IMG/VR virus record: IMGVR_UViG_3300024520_000012
Coordinates: 1-44,659 of that record
Source of the DNA: a virus
Direction: 5' to 3' (one strand)
Length of the DNA stretch: 44,659 nt
The notes below the pieces were generated by a model. That model saw only the letters and a list, made by a program, of their open reading frames with translations. It searched no databases and was not told the origin of the DNA. Made by a program: the position numbers and the translations under genes. Positions 1-44,659 of the stretch are shown in pieces (the first letter of the stretch is position 1; each line of letters opens with the position of its first letter).

Positions 1-94
1 AGGGCTTGCACCCCAGCCCGGATCGGTTACCTTTACTAGCGTGCTGAGGGGGTGGTCCTCTCAGCGAAACCCGGAAAAACGATGAACCAACCAA
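1..94. repeat. Terminal direct repeat, left copy
   Basis: These 94 bases are identical to 44566-44659. The overlap covers a promoter-hairpin cassette and also runs into the unique start of the gene at 82, so it is not just two members of the cassette family. It shows that the ends join, either as a circular or circularly permuted assembly or as a short terminal repeat. Confidence 0.95.
6..65 (+). promoter_or_regulatory. Promoter-hairpin cassette, copy 1
   Basis: The -35 box TTGCAC (6-11) is 16 bases from the -10 box TACCTT (28-33). Right after the predicted start of transcription lies an imperfect palindrome at 43-65, with 9-base arms GCTGAGGGG and CCTCTCAGC (one G-U pair in RNA) and a 5-base loop. 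The gene at 82 follows after a short SD-like GGA. It is the same locus as the copy at the right end of the window. Confidence 0.8.
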
Positions 95-480
95 CTACCA
101 GACGCCACCCGGTTCTGAGAGCGACGTACCTCGTTAACAACGTCGAGGTCGTCGGGGATTCCCTTCCCGATGGCTGGTCGATCGAGTGGGAGGTTTCCTC
201 CTACTACAACGACAATGAACGGAGGACCCACTGGCAGGACAGCCTCTCGCTGGTCAGGCGGCCTATGTCTCCTGACTACGACCCGGACTCCCCCTACACC
301 TCTGAGAACCAACAGGAAGAGATCGACCGCCACGTCGATCACGGCCGCCCCCTCTACGCGGACGACGTCTACTACACCAAGAGAGACATCGTCGACAGCA
401 TCCAGAACAGTCGGGTCGTTGTCTCCTACTACGATGAGACCCTCGACTGGAGTATCTCCCACGAACGGACGGGAGGATAA
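82..480 (+). CDS. Hypothetical early protein, 132 aa
   Basis: I do not recognise this protein. It is acidic and rich in Asp, Tyr and Ser, with clusters such as SSYYNDNERR and DYDPDSPYTSEN, and has no signal peptide or membrane segment. I chose the ATG at 82, which follows the GGA of the cassette leader. The longer frame opening at GTG 52 would start inside the leader hairpin, and that reading frame is not kept in the other cassette copies. It is the first of the small genes that each have their own promoter-hairpin cassette, and the next cassette begins just after its stop. Such small, separately promoted phage genes are often expressed early and act on host functions, but nothing in the sequence shows what this one does. 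Confidence 0.7.
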   Translation: MNQPTTRRHPVLRATYLVNNVEVVGDSLPDGWSIEWEVSSYYNDNERRTHWQDSLSLVRRPMSPDYDPDSPYTSENQQEEIDRHVDHGRPLYADDVYYTKRDIVDSIQNSRVVVSYYDETLDWSISHERTGG

Positions 481-498
481 AATAAAGGGAGAAAGGGC

Positions 499-558
499 TT
501 GCACCCCAGCCCGGATCGGTTACCTTTACTAGCGTGCTGAGGGGGTGGTCCTCTCAGC
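499..558 (+). promoter_or_regulatory. Promoter-hairpin cassette, copy 2
   Basis: TTGCAC (499-504), a 16-base spacer, TACCTT (521-526) and the palindrome at 536-558. A good Shine-Dalgarno GGAG (567-570) lies five bases before ATG 576. The upstream flank ATAAAATAAAGGGAG is shared with copy 3 and the right-end copy. Confidence 0.8.
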
Positions 559-575
559 GAAACCCCGGAGAAACC

Positions 576-890
576 ATGACGAGAAAAAACACCAAGGCGC
601 TGCTCAGCGAGGCAATTCTGCCTACCCAGGAACATGATATGAGCTACGAAGAACGATTTCCCCGGTCGTATGCCGGGAAGGTCGCCAAGGAGCGGGTTGA
701 GTCGGTCATCGCGGAGCACGGCCTCACCAAGGCCCGCGAAAACGTCAACATCCTCACCGAGAACATCTACCAGGGGTTGCCGTCTGGCGACTACGGGCGC
801 GGCGATGTGCGGCGCATGGTGATGGCCCTCGCCGGGGTCACGGTAGACGCAAACAATCGCTACGTCTGGGAAGGCCACGAGCTCAAGTAG
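576..890 (+). CDS. Hypothetical early protein, 104 aa
   Basis: Unrecognised small, charged, probably helical protein. The start at ATG 576 is fixed by GGAG five bases upstream, directly after the leader hairpin of cassette copy 2. The middle of the protein (about residues 22-75) alternates charged and hydrophobic residues and contains the stretch KERVESVIAEHGL, consistent with helices. I see no cysteine pairs, signal peptide or membrane segment. The gene is followed by a 35-base flank (GCCGGCAGATTGGTCGATAA and beyond) that is also found after the terminase gene at the right end. This suggests that gene-plus-cassette units have been copied or exchanged. Function unknown. Confidence 0.72.
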   Translation: MTRKNTKALLSEAILPTQEHDMSYEERFPRSYAGKVAKERVESVIAEHGLTKARENVNILTENIYQGLPSGDYGRGDVRRMVMALAGVTVDANNRYVWEGHELK

Positions 891-929
891 CGCCGGCAGA
901 TTGGTCGATAAAATAAAGGGAGAAAGGGC

Positions 930-989
930 TTGCACCCCAGCCCGGATCGGTTACCTTTACTAGCGTGCTGAGGGGGTGGTCCTCTCAGC
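930..989 (+). promoter_or_regulatory. Promoter-hairpin cassette, copy 3
   Basis: TTGCAC (930-935), 16-base spacer, TACCTT (952-957), palindrome 967-989. The SD is reduced to GAG (998-1000) before ATG 1006. Its upstream flank from about 893 matches the flank of the right-end copy. Confidence 0.8.
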
Positions 990-1005
990 GAAACCCCGAG
1001 AAACG

Positions 1006-1329
1006 ATGACCAACTTAAAAGACCTGAACCTGACGACCCTTGAGCGCGCCGTATTGGCCGACCTGCTGGCTAGCTGGGACGGCAACGGCGGCGACTTCGG
1101 TTTCATCGAAGACATTACCAGCGTCCCGATGAAGAGGGCGCGGGGCGTCGTGTCATCCCTGGTCAAGAAGGATCTCATCGTGGTTCACGAGGCGACCACT
1201 ACCGACAGCGGCACCTGGACGCAGTTCGATTTCTACGCGACCGAGAACGATCTGGACGGCCGCCACCTCGGCGAAGCCATTCGGAACGAACTTCGGGCAC
1301 AATCCGAGTGGCGTTACACAACCGATTGA
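1006..1329 (+). CDS. Putative winged-helix DNA-binding protein, 107 aa
   Basis: Residues about 8-60 read like a winged helix-turn-helix of the MarR type: a first helix (TTLERAVLADLLASW), a turn, a recognition-like helix (VPMKRARGVVSSLVKKD), and then a short strand pair LIVVHEATT leading to DSGTWTQFDFYAT as the wing. This is my reading of the pattern, not a family match. The start is ATG 1006 behind cassette copy 3. With its own promoter and a DNA-binding look, it could be an early regulator, for example of the repeated cassettes, but this is inference. The C-terminus (ENDLDGRHLGEAIRNELR) is charged and helical. Confidence 0.6.
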   Translation: MTNLKDLNLTTLERAVLADLLASWDGNGGDFGFIEDITSVPMKRARGVVSSLVKKDLIVVHEATTTDSGTWTQFDFYATENDLDGRHLGEAIRNELRAQSEWRYTTD

Positions 1330-1365
1330 CTACGACAGCGTGGCCTAAAGAAAACGAGAAAGGGC

Positions 1366-1425
1366 TTGCACCCCAGCCCGGATCGGTTACCTTTACTAGC
1401 GTGCTGAGGGGGTGGTCCTCTCAGC
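1366..1425 (+). promoter_or_regulatory. Promoter-hairpin cassette, copy 4
   Basis: TTGCAC (1366-1371), 16-base spacer, TACCTT (1388-1393), palindrome 1403-1425. This copy has no clear SD (AGAAAAGAAA before ATG 1443). Its upstream flank GCGTGGCCTAAAGAAAACGA is shared with copy 5. Confidence 0.8.
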
Positions 1426-1442
1426 GAAACCCAGAAAAGAAA

Positions 1443-1649
1443 ATGGCTTACTCCTCTCCCACTTACTCTTGGACGACCTCTTCGTTCGTGTGGCAGTTCA
1501 GTCCGGTTCACGGCGTGCCTTGGTGGTGGCCTGGCTGGAACAGGTTCGTTCGGGGCACTAACCCGAACTACGAGCCTTACGTGCCGGCCGCGTGGCCGCC
1601 CAAGGTGAAGGTCGGCCCTAACGGGTTCTGGGTCCCCGACAACGACTAG
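1443..1649 (+). CDS. Tryptophan-rich small protein, 68 aa
   Basis: Unrecognised, with very unusual composition. I count eight Trp in 68 residues, including WWW near residue 24, plus many Pro, Tyr and Phe and little helix-forming content. The start is ATG 1443 downstream of cassette copy 4. No strong ribosome-binding site is visible, only an A-rich AGAAAAGAAA. The aromatic clusters (HGVPWWWPGWNRF and PAAWPPKVKVGPNGFWVP) suggest a surface-binding or inhibitor-like small fold rather than an enzyme. It is not obviously a membrane protein, because the aromatics are broken up by Pro, Gly and charged residues. An early host-takeover factor is possible but unproven. Confidence 0.65.
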   Translation: MAYSSPTYSWTTSSFVWQFSPVHGVPWWWPGWNRFVRGTNPNYEPYVPAAWPPKVKVGPNGFWVPDND

Positions 1650-1688
1650 ACGCCCGACCCTTTTCTTCTTCCCCCGGAGGTTTGATTT

Positions 1689-1931
1689 ATGACTCTCCCG
1701 ACTGACGGCCGCGAGGCCGCACTCCTCTCTCTCGCCGAGAACCTCGGCCTTACCCCCTACGAGGCCGTCTTCTTGCCGGCGACCTTCGACAGCGCCGCGG
1801 CGCTTCTCGGCTCTCGCCGGCTCGTCGCCGAGCTCTCGACCAACGAAAGGCTCCAGAGCTACCTCGGCCAGGTGGTTCGCAAGGCCGCCCGGAGCCTGCC
1901 GGCCGAGATCCTCTTTACTAGCGTGGCCTAA
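1689..1931 (+). CDS. Hypothetical early protein, 80 aa
   Basis: Unrecognised, Ala/Leu-rich, probably all-helical protein. Unlike its neighbours it has no promoter-hairpin cassette of its own. Instead a strong Shine-Dalgarno GGAGG lies a few bases upstream of ATG 1689, so it is probably co-transcribed with the Trp-rich gene before it. Its last codons and stop lie within the flank that precedes cassette copy 5 (AGCGTGGCCTAAAG), which is also found before copy 4. The end of the coding region has thus been shaped by the same repeat. No domain, cysteine cluster or signal peptide is visible. Confidence 0.7.
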   Translation: MTLPTDGREAALLSLAENLGLTPYEAVFLPATFDSAAALLGSRRLVAELSTNERLQSYLGQVVRKAARSLPAEILFTSVA

Positions 1932-1948
1932 AGAAAACGAGAAAGGGC

Positions 1949-2008
1949 TTGCACCCCGGCCCGGATCTGCTACCTTTACTAGCGTGCTGAGGGGGTGGTC
2001 CTCTCAGC
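1949..2008 (+). promoter_or_regulatory. Promoter-hairpin cassette, copy 5
   Basis: TTGCAC (1949-1954), 16-base spacer with a few changes from the other copies, TACCTT (1971-1976), palindrome 1986-2008, then GGAG and ATG 2025. The palindrome is unchanged while the spacer varies, which suggests selection on the palindrome. Confidence 0.8.
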
Positions 2009-2024
2009 GAAACCCGGAGAAACG

Positions 2025-2087
2025 ATGACGACGAACCCGATGCTCGCTCTTCTTCTGGCACTGTTGCCGGGGTGGGGGTCGCTGTGA
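2025..2087 (+). CDS. Possible 20-aa hydrophobic leader peptide
   Basis: A 21-codon frame starts at ATG 2025, well placed behind the GGAG of cassette copy 5, and encodes a hydrophobic peptide with the core MLALLLALLPGW. Its stop TGA overlaps the GTG start of the next frame (GTGA at 2084-2087). The cassette position gives it the same status as the start codons of the other cassette genes. It could be a small membrane peptide or a leader peptide that couples translation of the genes behind it. It is very short, so some doubt remains. Confidence 0.5.
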   Translation: MTTNPMLALLLALLPGWGSL

Positions 2088-2191
2088 TTCTTCCCTCGCT
2101 CACTCTTCTTGTTGCTCTCGCCCTTATCTGGGTCGACGAGCGCTACTACGCCGCCGACGTTCGGGCGGCTCTGGAGCAATTGAATGGCTAA
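2084..2191 (+). CDS. Small single-pass membrane protein, 35 aa
   Basis: A 36-codon frame begins at GTG 2084, overlapping the stop of the preceding peptide, and ends in a TAA that overlaps ATG 2184 of the next gene. The N-terminal 17 residues (ILPSLTLLVALALIW) form a plausible transmembrane segment. The remainder (VDERYYAADVRAALEQLNG) is a polar helix. Overlaps on both sides suggest translational coupling in a chain 2025-2191-2507-3216 driven by cassette copy 5. The function is unknown; a small membrane-associated host-interaction peptide is one option. Confidence 0.5.
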   Translation: MILPSLTLLVALALIWVDERYYAADVRAALEQLNG

Positions 2192-2507
2192 GAGAACAAA
2201 ATACCGCTCGGTGCGCAACGCGCGTCGCTTCCGCGTGCTCGTCACCGGTGCCATGCCGGCCGCGGGCTACCATGTCGTCGAGGGCCTGGCCAAGCCGAGG
2301 CGCGGCGCCTTCTGGCAGCACGTCGCGACGGTCTCCACCGGGGCTGAGGCCACCAAGCTCGCCCAGGTGCTCGCCCCCGAGCACGGGTTCGCGATCTTGG
2401 CGCCCGACGGCCATGAGCTCGACTTCGTCTCGCCTGCCGGCGAGGTCACCGCTAGCGTCCCGCTGACCCCGGACATGCCCGGCCCGGACGGCCAAAACCA
2501 TGAGTGA
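2184..2507 (+). CDS. Hypothetical protein, 107 aa
   Basis: I do not recognise this protein. It has a basic N-terminus (AKRTKYRSVRNARRFRVLV) followed by a mixed alpha/beta middle, with strands such as FWQHVATVSTG, a helix EATKLAQVLAPEH and a strand FAILAPDG. The C-terminal tail is acidic and Pro-rich. ATG 2184 overlaps the stop of the small membrane gene before it, and its own stop overlaps ATG 2500 of the zinc-ribbon gene after it. It is therefore the middle member of a tightly coupled set. There are no cysteines arranged for metal binding and no membrane segment. Confidence 0.72.
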   Translation: MAKRTKYRSVRNARRFRVLVTGAMPAAGYHVVEGLAKPRRGAFWQHVATVSTGAEATKLAQVLAPEHGFAILAPDGHELDFVSPAGEVTASVPLTPDMPGPDGQNHE

Positions 2508-3216
2508 CCGCATCACCAATAACGAGACCGCCCGTCAGTGGCTCGCCGCTAAGGGCCACGAGGTCGAGCTCGTCGCCGACGGCGCCCAGGTTCGCGCCTC
2601 GCGCGTCTGCTCGCGCTGCCTCGGCTCGGGCCGCTACTCGTTTAACCTCACGCACGGGAGCGCGTGTTTCGGCTGCACGGTCGTTGGCAAGCCCTCGCGG
2701 TGGACCGAGCTCGTCGCCGTCGTCGACTACGCTCGCGGCCTTCGCAATGCCGAGACCAAGTCCGCCCGCGCGGCGAAGAAGGCGCAAGAGCGCGCCGAGG
2801 CCGCCGACAAGCGCGAGCGCGATTGGTGCGAGGCTAACGGCTACGGCCGTATTACCTTCGCAGAGAAGAACGCGAAGCTCGCCGAACAGCGCCAAGCCGA
2901 GCGCGAGGCGAACCGCGGCGTCGCCCCCGAGGGCCGCGTCGAGTTCACCGGGCGCGTTATCAAGGTGCAAGACCATTACCGCGGTTTCCGCGGCGGCTGG
3001 GAACTTAAGGCGACGATCGTCGTCACCGAAGACGACGGCACCGAGTGGCTCGCCTGGGGCACGGTGCCGGGCTCGCTGGCAAACAATGACGACTTCGGCA
3101 AGGGCTCGACCGTTCGCCTCACGGCGACGCTCACACGAGGTGACGACGCGCACTTCGCCTTCTACAAGCGCCCGGCGAACGCCGAGCTCGTCGCGACCGC
3201 GGCGCCGCCGGATTAG
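2500..3216 (+). CDS. Zinc-ribbon and OB-like domain protein, 238 aa
   Basis: Two CxxC pairs (CSRC about residues 36-39 and CFGC about 56-59) bracket the stretch GSGRYSFNLTHGSA, giving a DnaJ-like or rubredoxin-like zinc ribbon of a sort seen in many phage proteins. A long charged coiled-coil-like region follows (about 80-140, AKKAQERAEAADKRERDW). The C-terminal 95 residues resemble an OB-like beta barrel (VEFTGRVIKVQDHY, ELKATIVVTEDDG, WLAWGTVPGSL, STVRLTATLTRG, HFAFYKRPANAELV). This architecture suggests nucleic-acid binding. ATG 2500 overlaps the preceding stop. A role in DNA or RNA metabolism is likely, but I cannot name the partner. Confidence 0.7.
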   Translation: MSDRITNNETARQWLAAKGHEVELVADGAQVRASRVCSRCLGSGRYSFNLTHGSACFGCTVVGKPSRWTELVAVVDYARGLRNAETKSARAAKKAQERAEAADKRERDWCEANGYGRITFAEKNAKLAEQRQAEREANRGVAPEGRVEFTGRVIKVQDHYRGFRGGWELKATIVVTEDDGTEWLAWGTVPGSLANNDDFGKGSTVRLTATLTRGDDAHFAFYKRPANAELVATAAPPD

Positions 3217-3227
3217 CGAGAAAGGGC

Positions 3228-3287
3228 TTGCACCCCGGCCCGGATCGGTTACCTTTACTAGCGTGCTGAGGGGGTGGTCCTCTCAGC
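3228..3287 (+). promoter_or_regulatory. Promoter-hairpin cassette, copy 6
   Basis: TTGCAC (3228-3233), 16-base spacer, TACCTT (3250-3255), palindrome 3265-3287, GGAG, then ATG 3305. This is the last copy in this direction. The genes from 3305 to 4575 overlap one another and are probably read from it. Confidence 0.8.
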
Positions 3288-3304
3288 GAAACCCCGGAGA
3301 GACG

Positions 3305-3496
3305 ATGACTCAAGAATCCAGAAAGGAGCTCGGTGCGCGGGCGGTCGCCCGGATGCACACGCTACTCGTCTCGATCGCGGCCAGGCCGCACCACCGGATA
3401 CCCGGCCACTGCGCCGGCTGTGGGCACCCGAGCGCGGAGGTTCTCTGCTCGAAGTGCCACGACAAAGTTTACCACCAAGCAAAGGAGGACAAATGA
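3305..3496 (+). CDS. Small zinc-ribbon protein, 63 aa
   Basis: The C-terminal half has two close CxxC pairs (CAGC about residues 36-39 and CSKC about 48-51) with the spacing of a small zinc ribbon. The N-terminal half is a basic helix (SRKELGARAVARMHTLLVSIA). The start is ATG 3305, just after the GGAG of cassette copy 6. The stop shares bases with ATG 3493 of the LPD29-like gene (ATGA), so translation is probably coupled. Small zinc-ribbon proteins in phage early regions often bind nucleic acids or the transcription machinery, but nothing here decides the role. Confidence 0.65.
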   Translation: MTQESRKELGARAVARMHTLLVSIAARPHHRIPGHCAGCGHPSAEVLCSKCHDKVYHQAKEDK

Positions 3497-4005
3497 ACCA
3501 GAAGTTCGAATGGCTAACGGCCGTTGAAACGGCTAAGTGGCTGCGCAAGGCTTTGCGCAAGGCTTTCCCCGGCGTTAAGTTCCGCGTCAACGGCAGCCGG
3601 GGCACGGGCTACGGTTACTACGACGTGCGTTGGACTGGCGGCCCGAGCTACGACGAGGTCAAGGAGATTACCCGCGGCTTCGAGGGCACGCACTTCGGCA
3701 CGGACGAACACGGTAATCAGGACATCGAGTTCAGCGTGCCGACCTTCCTCGGCGTGGCAGAAGACGGCCGGCCGGTTCGCTCCGGTATGCGCGGCATCGC
3801 GTTGCAGCGCGACGTCCCCGAAGAAGAGATCGAGGCCAACGTGGCAATCTTGCGCGCCGAGTGGGGCTTCACCGGCCCCGAGCACAATCTCCGCAATGCC
3901 GCGGAGATGATGGCGAGAGGCTCCGAGGTGCCGAGAGCTCTCCAGTACTACCCCCTCACGAAGGAGACTAACCAAGTAACAACCAAGGAGAATGATGATG
4001 CTTGA
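3493..4005 (+). CDS. LPD29-like domain protein, 170 aa
   Basis: Residues about 10-75 match my memory of the large polyvalent protein-associated domain 29 (LPD29): a helix TAKWLRKALRKAFPGVKF, then a glycine-rich turn, then YYDVRWTGGPSYDEVKEI and a final RGFEG. LPD29 is found in many phage and mobile-element proteins, either alone or as part of larger polyvalent proteins, and its molecular role is unsettled. The rest (about 80-170) is unrecognised and mostly helical. AAAGGAGG lies just before ATG 3493, which fixes the start. The gene overlaps its neighbours on both sides in a short cysteine-rich gene cluster. Confidence 0.7.
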   Translation: MNQKFEWLTAVETAKWLRKALRKAFPGVKFRVNGSRGTGYGYYDVRWTGGPSYDEVKEITRGFEGTHFGTDEHGNQDIEFSVPTFLGVAEDGRPVRSGMRGIALQRDVPEEEIEANVAILRAEWGFTGPEHNLRNAAEMMARGSEVPRALQYYPLTKETNQVTTKENDDA

Positions 4006-8673: not shown

Positions 8674-9081
8674 GTGTCAGATCGCCGCCGTCTACTTCGT
8701 CTCATTCTCCGCCACACCAAAAACCCCCGGATACGTGAGGCGGCTCGGCGCTTACGCTTGGAGGTGCGGCAAGCAGAACAGCGGTTTCGGCGGCGCCAAG
8801 AGGAAAAAGGGCGGGGGCTTGCACTCTTCGGCCTGACCCTTTACCTTGTGTTCGTGATTAGCAGCGCGCAAAAGTGCCTTTGGTGTGGCGAGGCTCGCGC
8901 CCGCGGCTTCTCCCGCGCGATTACCTACACGCTTAAGGAAGAGGCCGCGGACACGCTTAAGGCCGCAGGGTGGCATTACGACGGTGAGACGAAGGGCGGC
9001 ACGTGGAACCGCCCGAGCCGAGCTCGCGTCGATAAGGCTCCGACAGGCAAGAAAACGCGATGGCGGCGGGATCTCTCGTGA
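8674..9081 (+). CDS. Hypothetical protein with CxxC motif, 135 aa; start uncertain
   Basis: Unrecognised. The first 45 residues from GTG 8674 are extremely Arg-rich (RRRLLRLILRHTKN, then RFRRRQEEKGRG). They are followed by a hydrophobic run FGLTLYLVFVI and then KCLWCGEARARGF. The hydrophobic run is encoded by DNA that also matches a TTGCAC-17-TACCTT promoter (8819-8847), so part of this N-terminus may not be translated in the main product. GTG 8854 just after the promoter would give a 75-residue protein starting near VISSAQKC. The C-terminal part (TLKEEAADTLKAAGWHYDGE, then WNRPSRAR) is basic and may bind nucleic acid. It overlaps the HTH gene downstream. Confidence 0.5.
   Translation: MSDRRRLLRLILRHTKNPRIREAARRLRLEVRQAEQRFRRRQEEKGRGLALFGLTLYLVFVISSAQKCLWCGEARARGFSRAITYTLKEEAADTLKAAGWHYDGETKGGTWNRPSRARVDKAPTGKKTRWRRDLS
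8819..8847 (+). promoter_or_regulatory. Promoter like the cassette promoters, without hairpin
   Basis: TTGCAC (8819-8824), a 17-base spacer and TACCTT (8842-8847) have the same two boxes as the six cassettes, and even the upstream GGGGGC resembles them. The downstream palindrome is missing. It lies inside the frame opening at 8674 and could drive the internal start at 8854 and the HTH gene at 9060. Confidence 0.55.
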
Positions 9082-9453
9082 CGGAGACTCTTGCCACAAT
9101 CGAGCGCCAGGCCATCGAGGCGGCACTCGATCGGCACGATGGCTACTCCGACGTTGTCGACCGCGCGGCGGCGGATCTCGGCGTAAGCCGCTCGCTGATA
9201 TACCGCCGATTGCACGCATGGCGTACGCTAGACGGGGTAAGGCTCCCGGCCGAGGCCCGCTCGGTGGGGGTTACCGCTGACGAGGTGGCCTGCATTTTCG
9301 GGCGTCTTACGCAGCGGGAGCTCGCCGAGCGCGCGGGGTTCTCGCCGGCGACGGCTTCCGGGCGGGTGCGAGAGGCGTTACGGCTTCTTGGGCGTCGTAA
9401 AACGCGGAGGGGGCTGGCCCTTTTGCCCTCTTCCGTGCTACGGTGCCGGCACC

Positions 9454-9467
<14 letters not shown>
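9060..9467 (+). CDS. Double helix-turn-helix regulator, Fis-type plus sigma-4-like, 135 aa
   Basis: Residues about 14-52 match a Fis-type HTH: a helix ERQAIEAALDRHDG, then AAADLGVSRSLIYRRLHAW. A second HTH follows at about 82-115 (LTQRELAERAGFSPATASG, then RVREALRLLGRR), similar to the LuxR or sigma region-4 type. Two DNA-binding motifs and nothing else point to a transcription factor, for example a switch to structural gene expression. The start could be ATG 9060 or GTG 9078; the latter overlaps the preceding stop as GTGA and has a GCGGGA-like SD. The gene sits just upstream of the portal and the head operon, which fits a late-gene activator. That role is inference. Confidence 0.65.
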
Positions 9468-9653: not shown

Positions 9654-12600
9654 GTGGTTTCCGAGCTTCGTCTGCGGAACCAAAGCCAGCAGCTTTACGT
9701 GCGCGCGCTCTCGACGGCGTGGCGCAACAGCATCGAGTTACACGACCCGAGCCTTTGGCTCCTGCGCGAGCCGGAACTCGAAGAGAAGATGCTGCGCGAC
9801 GCGGACATTGCGCACGCCGTGCAGTACCGCCGGCATATGATTGCTGGCCAGCGCTGGGCGGTCTTGCCTCGGATCGAAGGGTCGCCCCGTGCTCCGGTCG
9901 CCGTTAGCGTTGCGACGGAGCTTCTGGACGGAATAAAGAACTTCACGCAGGCTAGGCTTAACCTGGCACGTGCTTTCTTCTCTGGTTCGCGTTTCGGCTT
10001 TATCCACGGCTGCACGCGCAAGATGAAGATAGGCGACGGGGTCGAACGTCTATGGTGGTGCCCGACAACGATCGAAGACCGCGACAAGCGAACGTACCGC
10101 ATCGTTCCCGAGAATGACGGCGAGACACTCGCGGCGCATTGGGAGATATGGAACATTCCGAAGACGATATTTGAGCCCGAGACAATCGAAGACGCGGCGC
10201 AGACTATCCGCCACGTCTACCAAGAAGACCAAGCGAGCCTCGGCCACGGCCGCGCGCTGCGCGAGGCGCTCGGCTGGTGGTGGTACGCTAAGACCCACGT
10301 CTTTGAGGAGTCGTTACAAGCGGTAGAGCGGTTCGCGCAGGGTATCCTCGCCGCGAAGGTCGACGGCGCCAGAGATGCCGAGAGTGGGTTGCCTAACACG
10401 GAGCTCATTCGGGAATGGCGCGCAGTGCTTGAGGATCTGCGCGCGCGCAATGTGCTCGTATACGACTCAGCCGATCAGATCGAACATATCAGCATGAACG
10501 CGAGCGGGTGGGAGTTGCTCTCGACGATACGGGAGGAGCTACGCTCGACGATCTTCACGCTAATTCTGGGCGCAAACCTCACTACCTCGGCAAACAAAGG
10601 CGGGAGCTACGCTCTCGCTTCGATACAGGAGAACAGCACCGAAGCCCTCGTGCAGTACGACCGCGAAACCCTGGAGGAGACACTCACCGACGACCTTCTG
10701 GGCTGCGTGTGGTTCAAGAACCACGCGAACCTGGTCGAGCTCGGGATCGCCGAAGAGAAACCCCGCTTTAACGTCACGCAAGAGAAGAGGGAAGACCCGA
10801 AAGAGCGCGCGGACGTGGCTTCGGTGCTCAACCAAATGGGCGTCGAGCTATCTCTCGAAGACGTACTCGAACAGACAGGGTTTCGTAAGCCCGAGCCGGG
10901 CGAGGCCCTCGTCGAGAAGCCCGAGCCGGCGCCTGACCCGTTCGGCGGCGACGGGAGCCTGGGGCGGATTAACCCTCTGGGCGGACAGCCGGGCATGTTC
11001 CAGCGCGCAGACTTCGAGGTGCGGCACGCGCCGGCGGGGAGCTCGGAGGGCGGCCAGTTTCTCCCCGCGGACGACGCCGGCGGCGCTACTTTGGGCAAGC
11101 CTCTGCGCGAGATGAGCAAGGCGGAATATCACAACGTGATTTCGGCCTCCAAGGTGGTCGAGCGCATCGTGCGCGACTCGTATGGGGCAGTCGACGCTCG
11201 GGCCATTGGCGAGAAGGTGCGTGGGGAAGGGAAGTTATACCGCGCGACGGATGTCAACCTCGCCGACCTTGAGATCCAAGACGAGAAGAACGTCGACCCC
11301 TCGCGTGCGACACCCTCGAAGGGCGCCATCGTTGTCGATAGCTCGGGATTCATCATCGACGGGCGGCACCGAGCGGCGGCAGCCAAGGCGCGCGGTGATA
11401 CGACCATACGCGCATTGGTGCCGACCAACGACACCCGGCCCTACGAGCAGATGTTAGAGGAGGAGTCCGAAAACATGCGCGCCAGCTTCGAGGTGCGGCA
11501 CGCGCCGGCGGGGAGCTCGGAGGGCGGCCAGTTTCTCCCCGCGGACGACGCCGGCGGTGGTGGCTCGAAAGACGACAAGAAGGACAAGCCTAAGAAGGAC
11601 AAGCCTAAGAAGGACAAGCCTAAGAAGGACAAGCCTAAGAAGGACAAGCCTAAGAAGGACAGGTACGCACCGCCACGCTCGGACCCGCCGGAGGACGAAC
11701 CTGGCGCAAATTATTGGGAAGATTACTACCTGCGGGATGACGAGCCGGCGCGGGATCAAACCGGCGAGCCCAAGAAGGCGCCGATATTGGTGGATACGCC
11801 GGAGGGCGGGGCCAAAAACATCAAGCCGTACGTCGAGCAGAGAGCCGAGGAGCATCAACACCGGAAGCAACGCATACAGCAGGATCTCGACGATGGCCGT
11901 CTCACGCCCGAGACTGCGCAAGCACTCGACGCGGCGCTAGAGCGGCGCTTCAGCGAAGCGAACGCCAGGGTTGCGACGGCGGGGTATAACAACGAGGCCG
12001 AAACAGACAAACGGCATACGATCGGAGATACCGGCGAGTGGTCGATGGAGCGCAGGGCGATGCACAACGAGATCGTAGCGAATGTGATGCGTGGGGTGCC
12101 CCCCTCGGAGAACAAGACGTTCCAAATGATGGGCGGTGGCCCGGCGGCGGGGAAATCGAGCATAATCCGAGAAGGGTTTATGAGCTTGCCGGCGGCGCAC
12201 GTCATGTCGAACGCCGACGAGTTTAAGGAAGAGATTCCCGAATACAGAAACGCGGCGGCTAAGCGAGAGAAGGCGGCGGCTTGGAACGCGCACGAGGAGA
12301 GCAGTATGCTCGGCAAGCGCGTAATGCGTGAATCGCGCGAAGCGGGGCTCGACGTTGTTTGGGACGGCACCGGGGACCACAGCCTGGAGAAGCTCGCGTC
12401 TCAGGTAAAGCCGTTCCGCGATGCCGGTTACCAGGTGAAAGCCGATTACGTGACGGTAGACCCCTCGGAGGCGTGGTCTCGCGCGAAGGGGCGCGCGGCC
12501 AAGTCCGGCCGCTATGTGCCCGAGGATGTGGTAAAGGAGACACACCGAAACGTATCTCGGATGTGGGGGAACGCCGTTAAAGCGGGACTGTTCGACGAGT

Positions 12601-12911
12601 CGAACCTCTACGATACGAACACTCGGACCCCTAAGCTAATCGCGAGCGCTAAGGGGACCGAGATCGTGGTGCACGACCAGGAGGCTTTCGACCGTTTCGA
12701 GTCCCACGGGATGCCCGAGCGGACCCAGCGAAGGGAGGAAGCGGCGAGAGAGAAGGAGAAAGCCATTCGGGGAGGCCGGAGCCCTCTCAGCTATCCCGGG
12801 GGAACTCTACCAAAAGCGCTCATCGGGCCAACCAAACCCCTGAAAGGCAACCCAACCAAGGGGCCGGACGACATCGACTACGAGGATTATTACTTACGAG
12901 ATGACACTTAA
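9654..12911 (+). CDS. Portal fused to ParB-like and zeta-toxin kinase domains, 1085 aa
   Basis: Residues 1-430 match DUF935 (Mu gp29-type) portals, with ADIAHAVQYRRHMIAGQRW near the start and the INASGWELL/ANLTTSANKGGSYALASIQ region around 285-325. The portal forms the DNA gate of the capsid. A segment with DGRHRAAAAKARGD near 568-581 resembles a ParB-like domain. A Lys-rich linker (643-667) leads to a zeta-toxin-like kinase: Walker A GGGPAAGKSS near 826-835, NADEF as the likely catalytic Asp region, VVWDGTGD, and the late Arg-rich RAKGRAAKSGRYVP. Zeta toxins phosphorylate UDP-N-acetylglucosamine and block wall synthesis. A 24-residue segment is repeated exactly (about 453-476 and 611-634), and EDYYLRDD occurs at 689-696 and again at the C-terminus (1077-1084). 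Such fusions are known as polyvalent proteins. The start is GTG 9654. Confidence 0.88.
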   Translation: MVSELRLRNQSQQLYVRALSTAWRNSIELHDPSLWLLREPELEEKMLRDADIAHAVQYRRHMIAGQRWAVLPRIEGSPRAPVAVSVATELLDGIKNFTQARLNLARAFFSGSRFGFIHGCTRKMKIGDGVERLWWCPTTIEDRDKRTYRIVPENDGETLAAHWEIWNIPKTIFEPETIEDAAQTIRHVYQEDQASLGHGRALREALGWWWYAKTHVFEESLQAVERFAQGILAAKVDGARDAESGLPNTELIREWRAVLEDLRARNVLVYDSADQIEHISMNASGWELLSTIREELRSTIFTLILGANLTTSANKGGSYALASIQENSTEALVQYDRETLEETLTDDLLGCVWFKNHANLVELGIAEEKPRFNVTQEKREDPKERADVASVLNQMGVELSLEDVLEQTGFRKPEPGEALVEKPEPAPDPFGGDGSLGRINPLGGQPGMFQRADFEVRHAPAGSSEGGQFLPADDAGGATLGKPLREMSKAEYHNVISASKVVERIVRDSYGAVDARAIGEKVRGEGKLYRATDVNLADLEIQDEKNVDPSRATPSKGAIVVDSSGFIIDGRHRAAAAKARGDTTIRALVPTNDTRPYEQMLEEESENMRASFEVRHAPAGSSEGGQFLPADDAGGGGSKDDKKDKPKKDKPKKDKPKKDKPKKDKPKKDRYAPPRSDPPEDEPGANYWEDYYLRDDEPARDQTGEPKKAPILVDTPEGGAKNIKPYVEQRAEEHQHRKQRIQQDLDDGRLTPETAQALDAALERRFSEANARVATAGYNNEAETDKRHTIGDTGEWSMERRAMHNEIVANVMRGVPPSENKTFQMMGGGPAAGKSSIIREGFMSLPAAHVMSNADEFKEEIPEYRNAAAKREKAAAWNAHEESSMLGKRVMRESREAGLDVVWDGTGDHSLEKLASQVKPFRDAGYQVKADYVTVDPSEAWSRAKGRAAKSGRYVPEDVVKETHRNVSRMWGNAVKAGLFDESNLYDTNTRTPKLIASAKGTEIVVHDQEAFDRFESHGMPERTQRREEAAREKEKAIRGGRSPLSYPGGTLPKALIGPTKPLKGNPTKGPDDIDYEDYYLRDDT
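11012..11083 (+). repeat. 72-bp perfect direct repeat, copy 1
   Basis: Identical to 11486-11557, 474 bases (158 codons) downstream and in frame. It encodes a linker with FEVRHAPAGSSEGGQFLPAD at the end of the portal proper. Confidence 0.95.
11486..11557 (+). repeat. 72-bp perfect direct repeat, copy 2
   Basis: Second copy of the 72-base repeat, placed between the ParB-like domain and the Lys-rich linker leading to the zeta kinase. The two copies bracket the ParB-like module exactly. Confidence 0.95.
11580..11654 (+). repeat. 15-bp tandem repeat encoding Lys-Pro-rich linker
   Basis: Five exact units of AAGGACAAGCCTAAG encode a repeated KDKPK linker. It probably works as a flexible, strongly basic tether between the portal/ParB part and the kinase. 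Confidence 0.95.
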
Positions 12912-16304: not shown

Positions 16305-17303
16305 ATGAGCGACGTTATTGCAAGTGGGGTGCTAGCCAACGGCTTGCGCACCGACTTCTGGGACACCTACGCGGCGATCCGAAACCGTCAAGCTGACAGC
16401 CGGCTCTCGATGGTGATGGATCTGGGCATTCCCGCCACCAACCGAGAGCACAAGTTCGGGTACATCGAAGCCGCCCCACACTTCGAGCAGTGGGTGCGCG
16501 GCCAGTCCATCCCGACCGACGCGATGGACTCGACCGACTTCACGGTGCCCGTGTTCACATGGGGCCGCCGTGTTCGTTGGCACAACGAAGACCGCGAGGA
16601 CGACCAGACGCAAAGCCTGTTCGACATCGCGCGCCAGGCCGGCCAATCGGCCGGGTTGTTGCCAGAGCGGTTCTTCTTCGACCTCATCACGGGCTCGACT
16701 AACACGCTGCCCGCGGTGCCTTTGGCGCCCGACGGTGCTGCGATGTTCGCGACCACGGACGGCGGCGGCGGCGCTCGCTTCGGTGCTAGCGGCGGCAACC
16801 TGCTCACAGGTTCGGGCGTGGCTTCCGTCAGCGCGATCCGCACGGACTACTACAACGCTATCGAACAGTGGAAGGCGCTCCAGGACGGCAAGGGGCAACC
16901 GCTCCTATCCGACGAGACCATCGACTCGGGCGTCGTGCTCGTGCACGGCTCCGGCAACACCGAGGCTTTCGAGGAGGCTTTCTTGCAGAAGCGCCAGGGC
17001 GAGATCTACGGCTCGAACACGGCCGCGAGCACGCCAACGAACTTGGTGCATGACGCGAGCCGCAACGTGGACCTCTGGGGCACGCAACGCATCTCCGACA
17101 ACGACTGGTTCATGTTCCTCAAGAACCCACCGAAGAAGGCTACGTTCTTCCTCGACCGCAAGGGCATTATGGAAGAGTCCAGCTTGCGCGGAGAGAACAA
17201 CGGCGACTTGATGCGCGACACGGGCACCGAATACATCCAGTGGCACAGCCGTTCCGGCGGTGGTATTGCACTTCCGTTCGGCGCAATGAAGGTCAACAAC
17301 TAG
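16305..17303 (+). CDS. Major capsid protein, Mu gpT-like, 332 aa
   Basis: Size, position and sequence fit the Mu major head subunit (gpT): a helical N-terminal region, ANREHKFGYIEAAPHFEQW, FTVPVFTWGRRVRWHNEDRE, SLFDIARQAGQSAGLLPERF, a Gly-rich loop about 170-190, VLVHGSGNTEAFEEAF, and the closing HSRSGGGIALPFGAMKV. HK97-fold capsids of this type assemble the shell around the scaffold. The start is ATG 16305. It is followed by a strong terminator, as expected for the most abundant virion protein. Confidence 0.93.
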   Translation: MSDVIASGVLANGLRTDFWDTYAAIRNRQADSRLSMVMDLGIPATNREHKFGYIEAAPHFEQWVRGQSIPTDAMDSTDFTVPVFTWGRRVRWHNEDREDDQTQSLFDIARQAGQSAGLLPERFFFDLITGSTNTLPAVPLAPDGAAMFATTDGGGGARFGASGGNLLTGSGVASVSAIRTDYYNAIEQWKALQDGKGQPLLSDETIDSGVVLVHGSGNTEAFEEAFLQKRQGEIYGSNTAASTPTNLVHDASRNVDLWGTQRISDNDWFMFLKNPPKKATFFLDRKGIMEESSLRGENNGDLMRDTGTEYIQWHSRSGGGIALPFGAMKVNN

Positions 17304-25141: not shown

Positions 25142-27391
25142 ATGGCGAGCTTAAAGAAGGCGAAGGTAACCCTGGGTAATGTGCCCCTGGCGGCTACGGG
25201 TAGCGTGTCTTGGCAATTTGTCGGCGGCACGTCCCCATACCAGACCGTAATGTCGGTGCACAAAAGCCGGTGGCGTATACTAGAGGGACAAATTGGCGAG
25301 CCGCTTAACCTGAAGATCGTCGACTCACGCGGCGTCGAGACGTCGATTAATCAGGTGTACATCTTGCACCTAACGCCTAGCGACTCGCCGCATCGCACAT
25401 CATTCTTAGTATCCGACAAGCGGTGGAAGTGGGCGAACAAGATCGTTGTGCGGGACTTCAACATGCCCCGCAAGACGGGCGACCGCACCGCGCTTAACCG
25501 GGTGCCGGTTGAAACGCAGACGGTAGTCGACGACTACGACTACCTTGCGTATTCGCTGCAAGGGGATCAGGGCGTGAAGTGGTCAGCGAAAGAGGCGGTA
25601 AAGGAGGTGCTCGAAATACTGGAAGGCGCAGGCACGGAGAGCGGCGGGTACCGGGTCGAATCTTTTCCGATCAAGGACACGGGCGGCGGGGCTGCGGGCG
25701 AGCTCTCGCTGCAAGGGATCACGCTGCGCGATGCGGGGGACGTGGCGCTCGCTCGGATGCTCACATATGTTCCGGGCGCGGACGTGTACGTAAACGCCAA
25801 GGGGCAGGCTATCGTCTTCGACGCGACAGACATCGACGCGACGAAAGCGCACTTCCAGAAGATCCCCCCGAGCACGTACGCCGGCGAACATGCCGAGTGG
25901 ATCGACCGCAAGCACATACGACCTAAGAAAGTGATCGTGCACTACCAGCGCGAGATCGAGATTCTACTCCGTTACGAAGATAATTACGGCCAGGTCACAA
26001 GCGCGCAGCCGGTGAGAAACGCGCCCTACCTGGAGAACGTCTGTCCTACGGTCGACCCGAAAACAGAGCTCTCCAACGAGTTCGACCCCGAGTCGGGCAT
26101 GTACCAGCGAAAGACGGTACCCCCCGGTACGTGGGTTCGCTTCGACAAGTTGCTCGCTGCATGGGATGCGGACAAACCCGAGGGCAGTTGGCCGTGGACA
26201 TTTAAGACCATCAAAATGCACTGGCTTAAGGGCAACCTAGAAGGGGTGCTCGGCGCGCAAGGTAAAGACGTAGACACAGAGGCCAACATAGCGCTACGGG
26301 TGCAGGCGATCCGGCAGCACTTCCGGCAGACATTCCGCATCAACCGCCGGTACATGACGCGCGTTAGGTCTTTGCGCGCGGTGCGGGTGGGGATGCTCGA
26401 TCCCGTCACCGGGGCTCGGGCGCCGGCCGCCGTGTGGGGCCAGGCTTGCATTATACCGACGACGAAGGGGGAGTACATAGCTGCCCGGAGCACCGACGAG
26501 ACCGATAAGCTCAAGGTCTACCGTAACGTCGACTACCTCGCGCCTTCGCGGGCTCCGGGTACGCAGATCATCGAAACGGCACCAGGTCCGACCCGCGTGA
26601 GTATCATCGACGAGGAGCTCGGGATCTTTCGGCTCTCCTGGGAGGCGTCCCCCTACGGGACCGTCGGCAGCTTCATTCCGTGCCGGATTGTATGCGACAC
26701 GAAACTCGACGGGTGCGTGCCGATGCGAGACTTGTCGCAGCAAGATACCCAACCTGTGGGGCCCGGCCTCCAAGTCGAAGAGGGGGCTAACGGTATCTTC
26801 TTAGATAAGAAGCTAGAGTACGCCGTCGTTCTTACCGTGGTGCCGGCGGCTCCTAACAACGAGAAGCAGTTTCACCGCGAAGAGATCGAGGCGTCTGACG
26901 TGCAGGACCTTTTCCGGCGTGAGTTCGGTATAACCGACGGTGAGGGTCCCGACTTGCACGTCGTAGTGCCTCCTGGCGAGGTGACGGCGCGCTTTGCGCT
27001 AGCGGTAGAGGACGCCGCAGGCGCAGGTATCGCGGAGTTGTTCGGACTTAACGGCGCCCCAAACACCGCCGGCGTCGAAGGCCCGGACGTGCCTGGGTAC
27101 ATCCTCACCAACGGAGAGCGCGAGATTAAGCCCCACGCCACGAGTTTCGCGGCCGAGCTCTTGACGGCCTACGCCGATAACATCCAAGGCGCCGTGGTTA
27201 CTCGGGTACCCAAGGACGGCCTGGAGCTCGTCGGTAATATGAGCAGCGCCGCCGTTCGCGTAGCCGCGGCCCCCTCGGCGAAGGTCGACGCGGTGCACAG
27301 CTTCCCCGGGCAACAGAGGCCCATTTCGAGGCTCGCGACCATGCCCGAGAGTGCGCGCCAGCTAATCCTCGGTATCGTACCCTTCAAATGA
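25142..27391 (+). CDS. Tail hub/baseplate protein candidate, 749 aa
   Basis: Large protein in the place of a tail hub (gp27/gpD-like). The N-terminal 130 residues are beta-rich (AKVTLGNVPLAATGSVSWQF, INQVYILHLTPSDSPHRTSF, KRWKWANKIVVRDFN). The segment SAKEAVKEVLEILEGAG, then YPIK-like FPIKDTG and GELSLQGITLRDAGDVALAR resembles the helix-and-strand portion of tail hubs, with VYVNAKGQAIVFDATD after it. The C-terminal half includes a stalk-like region with FGLNGAPNTAGVEGPDVPGY. The stop shares bases with ATG 27388 of the fibre gene. No peptidase or lysozyme motif is visible. The call rests mainly on order and length. Confidence 0.5.
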   Translation: MASLKKAKVTLGNVPLAATGSVSWQFVGGTSPYQTVMSVHKSRWRILEGQIGEPLNLKIVDSRGVETSINQVYILHLTPSDSPHRTSFLVSDKRWKWANKIVVRDFNMPRKTGDRTALNRVPVETQTVVDDYDYLAYSLQGDQGVKWSAKEAVKEVLEILEGAGTESGGYRVESFPIKDTGGGAAGELSLQGITLRDAGDVALARMLTYVPGADVYVNAKGQAIVFDATDIDATKAHFQKIPPSTYAGEHAEWIDRKHIRPKKVIVHYQREIEILLRYEDNYGQVTSAQPVRNAPYLENVCPTVDPKTELSNEFDPESGMYQRKTVPPGTWVRFDKLLAAWDADKPEGSWPWTFKTIKMHWLKGNLEGVLGAQGKDVDTEANIALRVQAIRQHFRQTFRINRRYMTRVRSLRAVRVGMLDPVTGARAPAAVWGQACIIPTTKGEYIAARSTDETDKLKVYRNVDYLAPSRAPGTQIIETAPGPTRVSIIDEELGIFRLSWEASPYGTVGSFIPCRIVCDTKLDGCVPMRDLSQQDTQPVGPGLQVEEGANGIFLDKKLEYAVVLTVVPAAPNNEKQFHREEIEASDVQDLFRREFGITDGEGPDLHVVVPPGEVTARFALAVEDAAGAGIAELFGLNGAPNTAGVEGPDVPGYILTNGEREIKPHATSFAAELLTAYADNIQGAVVTRVPKDGLELVGNMSSAAVRVAAAPSAKVDAVHSFPGQQRPISRLATMPESARQLILGIVPFK

Positions 27392-42557: not shown

Positions 42558-42902
42558 ATGCCGATAATCGAGACTCCCGCCGAGTTGGTGCTTAAGGTCA
42601 AGGGTGGGCGCACGGGGCGCGTGGAGCTCATCGCCGTGTGCCGTCGGATGGCGATCGAGGAAGGCACGACGCTCGAAGTGATGCTGTGGGAAACTGTCAA
42701 GGGTGTGGCGCATTGGGCACGCCACGGGGACGCGGCGTGCGCGAAACTCATGCTCTCGCTTTTCGCGAGGGACGAGGCCTCGGCGCCCGAGGGGGTGCCG
42801 AGCGCGAAGGACGTCGAGATCGGGCCGCCCGTGCCGCGCGACCAGGCGCACTACGCCGAGCTCGGCGAGAAGGTGATCGCAGAGCTCGACCTACTCGCAT
42901 GA
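42558..42902 (+). CDS. Probable terminase small subunit, 114 aa
   Basis: Position directly before the large terminase, and a size and helical make-up (LKVKGGRTGRVELIAVCRRM, AIEEGTTLEVMLWETVKGVA, HWARHGDAACAKLMLSLFAR) fit a small terminase subunit, which recognises phage DNA for packaging. No firm HTH motif is visible. I start it at ATG 42558, which has GGAGG at the right distance; an ATG at 42546 overlaps that SD. Its stop shares bases with the large subunit start (ATGA). Confidence 0.55.
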   Translation: MPIIETPAELVLKVKGGRTGRVELIAVCRRMAIEEGTTLEVMLWETVKGVAHWARHGDAACAKLMLSLFARDEASAPEGVPSAKDVEIGPPVPRDQAHYAELGEKVIAELDLLA

Positions 42903-44521: not shown

Positions 44522-44565
44522 GCTTAAGCCCTGCCGGCAGATTGGTCGATAAAATAAAGGGAGAA

Positions 44566-44659
44566 AGGGCTTGCACCCCAGCCCGGATCGGTTACCTTTA
44601 CTAGCGTGCTGAGGGGGTGGTCCTCTCAGCGAAACCCGGAAAAACGATGAACCAACCAA
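44566..44659. repeat. Terminal direct repeat, right copy
   Basis: Identical to bases 1-94. It includes the cassette and the first codons of the gene at 82. Together with the left copy it shows that the genome is circular or terminally redundant. Confidence 0.95.
44571..44630 (+). promoter_or_regulatory. Promoter-hairpin cassette, right-end copy (same as copy 1)
   Basis: TTGCAC (44571-44576), TACCTT (44593-44598) and the palindrome (44608-44630) repeat the first cassette. The upstream flank from 44533 (GCCGGCAGATTGGTCGATAA) matches that of copy 3 near 893. Confidence 0.8.

Follow-up and report, generated by a model that had tools for sequence, protein, structure and literature searches.

A copied promoter cassette with a predicted 5′ hairpin and a putative leaderless leader reading frame before six small genes or gene groups of an uncultured phage

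The window analysed here is the whole of a 44,659-nucleotide (nt) stretch, IMG/VR virus record IMGVR_UViG_3300024520_000012, whose first 3.3 kb carry six copies of a 77-nt core made of a promoter, a palindrome and the beginning of an open reading frame (ORF). The copies appear to be parts of a self-contained expression cassette that has been copied to at least six places between the terminase and portal genes, each before an unrelated small gene or gene group. On the evidence of the sequence, we lean towards the view that this cassette is a copied promoter joined to a leaderless "fore-cistron" start module with a 5′ hairpin. Its upstream half would be an A-rich tract and a sigma-70-type promoter (TTGCAC-16-TACCTT), of the same layout and at the same place as in related phages, and its downstream half a start module of 41–42 nt that seems to be found only in this phage. 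Transcription would begin 7–8 nt past the −10 box, on or beside a GTG that stands where the relatives have a putative leaderless ATG. From this GTG, a leader of 14 codons (MLRGWSSQRNP...) would be read. In copies 2, 4 and 6 the leader continues in frame into the gene, while in copies 1, 3 and 5 it would stop at an ATGA and the ribosome would restart on the gene. With a natural leaderless fore-cistron of this kind, the start would depend less on which gene follows, and the hairpin most likely protects the 5′ end of the RNA and perhaps gates access to the GTG.

The core reads, in order, GAGAAAGGGC-TTGCAC-16 nt-TACCTT-TACTAGC-GTGCTGAGGGGGTGGTCCTCTCAGC-GAAACCC, and its six occurrences within 3.3 kb compare with none expected by chance. 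The −35 box (TTGCAC), the 16-nt distance and the −10 box (TACCTT) are exact in every copy, so that the six near-identical promoter and palindrome cassettes described in an initial annotation of this DNA were borne out. The 23-mer palindrome occurs at positions 43, 536, 967, 1403, 1986, 3265 and 44608 (none expected in shuffled sequences), and the full 77-nt core is intact at 489, 920, 1356, 1939, 3218 and 44561, copy 1 being truncated by the start of the window. The cassette at the right end had been counted as an additional unit. The first 94 nt of the contig are exactly its last 94 nt, and because the right-end cassette is located in this terminal overlap of a circular contig, it is copy 1 again and there is no seventh unit. 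Six copies are a minimum, as some may have been dropped or put in another order when short reads were assembled across repeats about 100 nt long. The positions of the copies are as follows.

44533..44659, + strand: copy 1 with its full upstream flank (28-nt flank 44533-44560 in common with copy 3, core 44561-44637), equal to window 1-94 through the terminal overlap
1..72, + strand: copy 1, cut by the window start (−35 at 6-11, −10 at 28-33, GTG at 41-43, palindrome at 43-65)
489..565, + strand: copy 2 core (−35 at 499-504, −10 at 521-526, GTG at 534-536, palindrome at 536-558; type A flank at 476-488)
920..996, + strand: copy 3 core (−35 at 930-935, −10 at 952-957, GTG at 965-967, palindrome at 967-989; type A flank at 892-919)
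1356..1432, + strand: copy 4 core (−35 at 1366-1371, −10 at 1388-1393, GTG at 1401-1403, palindrome at 1403-1425; type B flank at 1337-1355)
1939..2015, + strand: copy 5 core (−35 at 1949-1954, −10 at 1971-1976, GTG at 1984-1986, palindrome at 1986-2008; type B flank at 1920-1938)
3218..3294, + strand: copy 6 core (−35 at 3228-3233, −10 at 3250-3255, GTG at 3263-3265, palindrome at 3265-3287; no common flank)

Between −45 and +30, the copies vary only at −26, −16 and −14, all of which lie inside the 16-nt spacer (P ~0.008 if sites were random). In copy 5, the spacer changes place TGC before the −10 box, creating an extended −10. It is thus correct, as had been noted, that the spacer varies and the palindrome does not, but the palindrome is not specially conserved, because the boxes, the stretch from −10 to +1 and the ten bases 5′ of the −35 box are equally invariant. 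The upstream flanks fall into the two shared types that had been recognized. Type A comprises 28 nt common to copies 1 and 3, with 13 nt common to copies 1, 2 and 3 (GATAAAATAAAGG), and type B comprises 19 nt common to copies 4 and 5 (AGCGTGGCCTAAAGAAAAC); copy 6 has neither. In two cases, the common flank supplies the stop codon of the preceding ORF, namely the TAA of GATAAAATAAA for the gene at 82-480 and the TAA of GCGTGGCCTAA for the ORF at 1689-1931, which looks like a fusion of coding DNA to the border of the cassette. Taken together, the repeats firmly indicate that the promoter unit was copied within this genome, with one unit for each small gene or gene group, which agrees with what had been proposed. 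The cassette may also serve as a homologous junction for gene exchange. The only candidate for a cassette remnant is CTTTACTAGCGTG at 1913-1925, identical to the −10 to +1 stretch of the cassette and directly 5′ of the copy 5 flank; it is not claimed as the scar of a lost cassette, its length of 13 being within the simulated range.

The case for a leaderless start is built on the related phages, of which capsid searches returned 73 viral loci. Among their promoter-like sites, an ATG lies exactly 7 nt past the −10 box in 7 of 71, with no more than two at any other distance and no such peak with control codons. When no −35 box is required, an excess of TANNNT is seen at distances of 6 and 7 nt from the ATG that follows (45 and 39 occurrences, against about 20 elsewhere). 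Given the usual distance from −10 to +1, an ATG 6–7 nt past the −10 box predicts that these mRNAs are leaderless. In the window, a GTG stands 7 nt past the −10 box in all six cassettes, where the chance of an ATG or GTG at a given position is 0.025. The stretch from the predicted +1 to the ATG of the gene is an ORF in 6/6 copies, a feature absent from the initial annotation, and its frame reads GTG CTG AGG GGG TGG TCC TCT CAG CGA AAC CCN (MLRGWSSQRNP...). The leader ends in one of three ways. Copies 1, 3 and 5 end in GAR AAA CGA TGA (MLRGWSSQRNPEKR*), in which the TGA overlaps the ATG of the gene as ATGA; copies 2 and 6 end in GGA GAR ACS ATG, in frame with the gene; and copy 4 ends in GAA AAG AAA ATG, also in frame. 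The leader of copies 2 and 6 differs in length by one base from that of copies 1, 3 and 5 (41/42 nt), and in both multi-copy length classes the variable leader sites, four in all, are synonymous third positions (P ~0.01, with the frame set in advance). The proposed leaders that end by overlap are listed below.

41..85, + strand: proposed leader ORF of copy 1 (MLRGWSSQRNPEKR*), TGA at 83-85 overlapping ATG at 82-84
965..1009, + strand: proposed leader ORF of copy 3 (MLRGWSSQRNPEKR*), ATGA overlap at the gene start 1006
1984..2028, + strand: proposed leader ORF of copy 5 (MLRGWSSQRNPEKR*), ATGA overlap at the gene start 2025

Conservation within the cassette is lowest just 5′ of the gene ATG. 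There, Shine-Dalgarno pairing is good in copies 2, 5 and 6, at random level in copies 1 and 3 and absent in copy 4, which would be odd for the main start signal. The GTG of the cassette is probably used as a start codon. A second site in the window with the same boxes, at 8819-9081, also has the leaderless layout and begins with a GTG. Other leaderless-type ORFs that are joined to the next gene by RTGA were found in related loci L111 (36 aa) and L045 (57 aa). The end of the 36-aa ORF (L111 6905-6930) reads AAACCCGGAGcatctcACGATGAACCA, close to the window leader end AAACCCGGAaaaACGATGAACCA of copy 1, and a common origin of the junction is possible.

The RNA from the predicted +1 folds, within its first 26 nt, into a 10-pair stem that starts at +2 and carries the loop GUGGU (−16.5 kcal/mol, z −2.8). 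A stable stem is thus present within a few nt of the predicted mRNA 5′ end, as had been suggested. The palindrome that encodes it, described earlier as a 23-base palindrome, is present in all copies but is imperfect as DNA: it has a 9-5-9 layout (GCTGAGGGG / CCTCTCAGC) with 8/9 positions symmetric and one G-T, which pairs in RNA only, as a wobble. When the leader peptide is recoded at random with synonymous codons, 99.3% of the results fold less strongly than the hairpin, and so the structure itself seems to be selected.

Several observations weigh against a leaderless start on the GTG. The last base of the GUG is inside the stem, with unpaired probabilities of 0.93 (G1), 0.4 (U2) and 0.0 (G3), and a hairpin over the GUG should hinder leaderless initiation, which is the main difficulty. 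The predicted leaderless 5′ ends of the relatives form much weaker structures (0 to −9.4 kcal/mol), and rare codons are found in the leader (AGG, 5% of Arg; CGA, 9%; TCT, 9% of Ser). The copies share descent and are not six independent tests, so the agreement in frame and length is weak on its own, and the third-position A/G changes could also reflect a purine-rich Shine-Dalgarno stretch. To treat the leader as a proven gene was rejected as over-simple, since codon usage and the hairpin speak against it. Three ways out are conceivable: ribosomes could load ahead of stem closure, the stem could gate the start, or the phage could have switched to leadered messages, with a protective hairpin and a relic GTG.

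The last of these is the most serious alternative, in which the cassette is a promoter followed by an untranslated 5′ leader, the hairpin from +2 to +26 shields the message from 5′-end-dependent decay, translation starts at the ATG through a GGAG-like site, and the GTG is there by chance or as a relic. This version would fit the strong hairpin right at the predicted 5′ end, its G-U pair, which is sensible only in RNA, its stability beyond what the peptide requires, and the properly spaced GGAG of copies 2, 5 and 6. It accounts poorly for a Shine-Dalgarno stretch that is the least conserved and is at random level or absent in copies 1, 3 and 4, for a GTG exactly at the leaderless position of the group, and for the synonymous pattern and the 41/42-nt leader lengths. 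We consider it rather unlikely, at something like one chance in four. An intrinsic terminator or attenuator was rejected, as the stem is followed by GAAACCC with no T run and is absent from the + strand terminator scan.

That the palindrome is a DNA operator, at which a phage or host protein binds just 3′ of the start site and represses or activates the six promoters jointly, is improbable. The site is near-symmetric (9-5-9) and identical in all copies, and candidate genes for a binding protein exist at 1006-1329 (weak winged helix-turn-helix) and 9078-9467 (helix-turn-helix-like by eye). One arm position is nevertheless a G-T mismatch as DNA, relatives have the same kind of repeated promoters without the palindrome, and no integrase or repressor family was seen among the part of the proteins that was searched; for the repressor or activator site first suggested, no positive support was found. 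It is also conceivable, with a very low probability, that the hairpin is an RNA site bound by a translational repressor or activator protein acting on six messages. A short stem with a fixed 5-nt loop (GUGGU) that is invariant in six copies would suit such a protein, but no candidate RNA-binding protein was identified, and the invariance is shared by the promoter boxes and may reflect only recent copying.

The look at related phages that had been proposed cut both ways. Repeated promoter cassettes or units before small genes were found in L110, L111/L112 and L081/L082. The palindrome, however, is missing from all 57 related records that were searched with up to 3 mismatches allowed, and by the refuting condition that had been set it is not a conserved site of this phage group. 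A search with the gene at 2500-3216 found L110 (IMGVR_UViG_3300009130_001246; 84% identical protein) and L111/L112 (46%; L111 is IMGVR_UViG_3300024518_003826); an exonuclease query yielded only relatives of 30-38% and was not useful for this locus. L110 is syntenic with the window, with a terminase that is 71% identical, and has three promoters right behind the terminase gene, two of them nearly identical upstream (AAAAAAAGAGAGCAGGGGCTTGCAAGCCCTTCGCCGAA), with ATG 6–7 nt past the −10 box. L111 has three promoters of its own (A-rich tract, CTTGACACCC..., AACTAGTGTCTACT, ATG 7 nt on), so that repeated cassettes precede unrelated small genes at the same locus in L110 and L111/L112. In L081/L082, repeated promoter units also precede small genes: positions 1-1100 of L082 (IMGVR_UViG_3300025133_000485) hold three small genes, each with an intrinsic terminator (the first partly cut), an A-rich tract, a promoter and identical first codons ATGAACAACACC (MNNT). 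This unit is a repeated terminator-promoter-start cassette of another kind. G001 (L045/L008), the nearest capsid relative with a long record (84% capsid identity), has leaderless-type promoters at the locus and no repeats.

Like those of the window, the cassettes of L110, L111 and L082 consist of an A-rich tract and a sigma-70-type promoter, stand one per small gene and are alike within a genome; those of L110 and L111 also adjoin the terminase gene, and L111 shares the joining of a leaderless-type ORF to the next gene by ATGA. Unlike the window, the relatives have the gene ATG 6–7 nt after the −10 box, with no hairpin and no leader, and L082 differs further in the intrinsic terminator before its promoter and the shared first codons MNNT. 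One promoter per small gene thus appears to be a habit common to the group; each genome appears to have copied cassettes of its own, and among the phages compared only that of the window has the hairpin module. Cassettes that are alike within and different between genomes are the pattern expected from copying or homogenization within genomes.

Beyond these relatives, the cassette region has no match in cultured phages, and the cassette alone gave a single 30-nt match there (Gordonia phage OneUp, E 0.7). Pattern scans of IMG/VR, where very near relatives may be missing, for the promoter plus stem, for the hairpin alone and for the −10 to stem stretch found none beyond this record, and a looser promoter-plus-GCTGAG pattern found seven contigs with one match each. 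Neither the hairpin nor capsid relatives were found in GTDB genomes, to which the same limit applies, and an Rfam search gave no match.

A GC-rich inverted repeat surrounds the −35 box in the window (489-517 and the other cassettes), in L110 (5610-5640) and in L111 (5148-5170 and 5912-5938). Its arms differ among phages and stay complementary (GGGCT/AGCCC, GGGTG/CACCC, GGGGAG/CTCCCC). The repeats are individually weak (P 0.04-0.17 for the full copies of the window and 0.03-0.44 for L110 and L111, the cut copy 1 being uninformative). Together with the A-rich tract, the repeat resembles an intrinsic terminator on the bottom strand.

Partial counterparts of a leaderless fore-cistron cassette are known. 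In mycobacteria, leaderless translation requires an ATG or GTG at +1 and nothing more, and leader ORFs with RTGA coupling are more frequent than expected (PMC4633059). Copies 1, 3 and 5 resemble these coupled small ORFs in having an ATG or GTG at the mRNA 5′ end (here predicted) and a TGA that overlaps the next start. The mycobacterial leaders each have their own sequence, and the coupling is kept rather than the peptide (PMC4633059), whereas the window has one identical leader before six unrelated genes, half of the copies fused in frame, and a strong 5′ hairpin at start sites that are predicted. As a leaderless start, GUG works in several actinobacteria and poorly in E. coli (PMC9031893). 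A synthetic leaderless bicistronic cassette of Corynebacterium glutamicum likewise combines a leaderless promoter, a short fore-cistron and then the gene, which makes expression less gene-dependent, and it needs fore-cistron translation and a Shine-Dalgarno site (PMC10367133). Unlike the window, that design is man-made, has longer fore-cistrons and needs an active internal Shine-Dalgarno, which in the window is weak or missing in three copies.

The start-associated sequences (SAS) of cluster K mycobacteriophages are 13-nt elements at the ribosome-binding site, present in many copies along half a genome and with no tie to promoters in that paper; the extended form (ESAS) adds an inverted repeat whose arms were judged not to form RNA hairpins (PMC3203893). 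Both are like the window in being short repeats before the starts of many small non-structural genes of different families (PMC3203893). The similarity to SAS raised in the initial annotation is an analogy only: the SAS 13-nt motif GGGATAGGAGCCC was not found 3–7 nt before starts, its one match with 2 mismatches being on the other strand inside a gene, with 1.4 expected by chance. The hairpin may stabilize its message as 5′-terminal hairpins do in some bacterial mRNAs. The ompA message is an example, with its hairpin in an untranslated leader; the stem of the window differs in that it is located within a possible reading frame and belongs to a promoter unit that has been copied.

Literature searches, made in open-licence papers, gave no case of a phage spreading a module of this kind among multiple genes. 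A more specific proposal, which we hold tentatively and at somewhat less than even odds, is that the cassette is a portable leaderless bicistronic module whose GTG begins at the first nucleotide and whose 14-codon leader is gated by the hairpin, kept uniform by copying over six unrelated genes, while related phages each have a private, simpler leaderless cassette. If this is true, the module would be a natural counterpart of the leaderless bicistronic cassettes built by synthetic biologists in 2023, by which a phage would secure reliable expression of small genes that it has recently acquired, irrespective of their own start regions. The relatives suggest a habit of the group, in which each genome keeps one uniform promoter-start cassette of its own and places it before small genes, the set of which changes. 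The module would also pose the puzzle of how a leaderless start works, or is regulated, beneath a strong 5′ hairpin.

The cassette block is located between the terminase large subunit gene and the structural genes, of which the portal/minor head gene comes first. Nothing in the sequence supports the label "early" that had been given to the genes. A role in host takeover, also suggested, lacks support, as family searches gave no informative matches for the cassette genes. The genes concerned are listed below.

42899-44521: terminase large subunit gene
82..480, + strand: gene behind copy 1, 132 aa, no family
534..890, + strand: gene behind copy 2, in-frame leader with 14 codons to the ATG at 576, 118 aa (GTG start) or 104 aa (ATG start), no family
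1006..1329, + strand: gene behind copy 3, of 107 aa and weakly similar to winged-helix TrmB (E 0.014, below the Pfam cut-off)
1401..1649, + strand: gene behind copy 4, in-frame leader, ATG at 1443, 82 aa (GTG start) or 68 aa (ATG start, which no Shine-Dalgarno site precedes), no family
2025..3216, + strand: overlapping ORF chain behind copy 5, comprising 2025-2087 (20 aa), 2084-2191 (35 aa, GTGA overlap), 2184-2507 (107 aa) and 2500-3216 (238 aa)
3263..3496, + strand: gene behind copy 6, in-frame leader, ATG at 3305, small, zinc-ribbon-like (sub-threshold), ATGA into 3493-4005 (LPD29 domain)
8819..9081, + strand: second site type with the same boxes and no hairpin, TTGCAC at 8819, TACCTT at 8842, GTG at 8854, 6 nt on, start of a 75-aa ORF with a GTGA overlap at its end
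9654-12911: portal/minor head gene
16305-17303: major head gene

The protein of 2500-3216 matches phage families of unknown function. An AlphaFold model of the product of 1006-1329, made with no alignment, had a mean pLDDT of 50 and was discarded. The 75-aa ORF of the 8819 site has a weak Mom-like match (E 2e-4) and is joined by GTGA to a 129-aa ORF (9078-9467) with helix-turn-helix-like stretches by eye, a possible phage regulator. The 1085-aa ORF at 9654-12911 is apparently a fusion, its first half matching portal and its last third minor head proteins. Within the 1299-aa ORF at 27388-31287, positions 30755-30803 form a long inverted repeat (GTGCTCATGCTAGAAT ... ATTCTAGCATGAGCAC), whose 16-nt arms are separated by about 21 nt.

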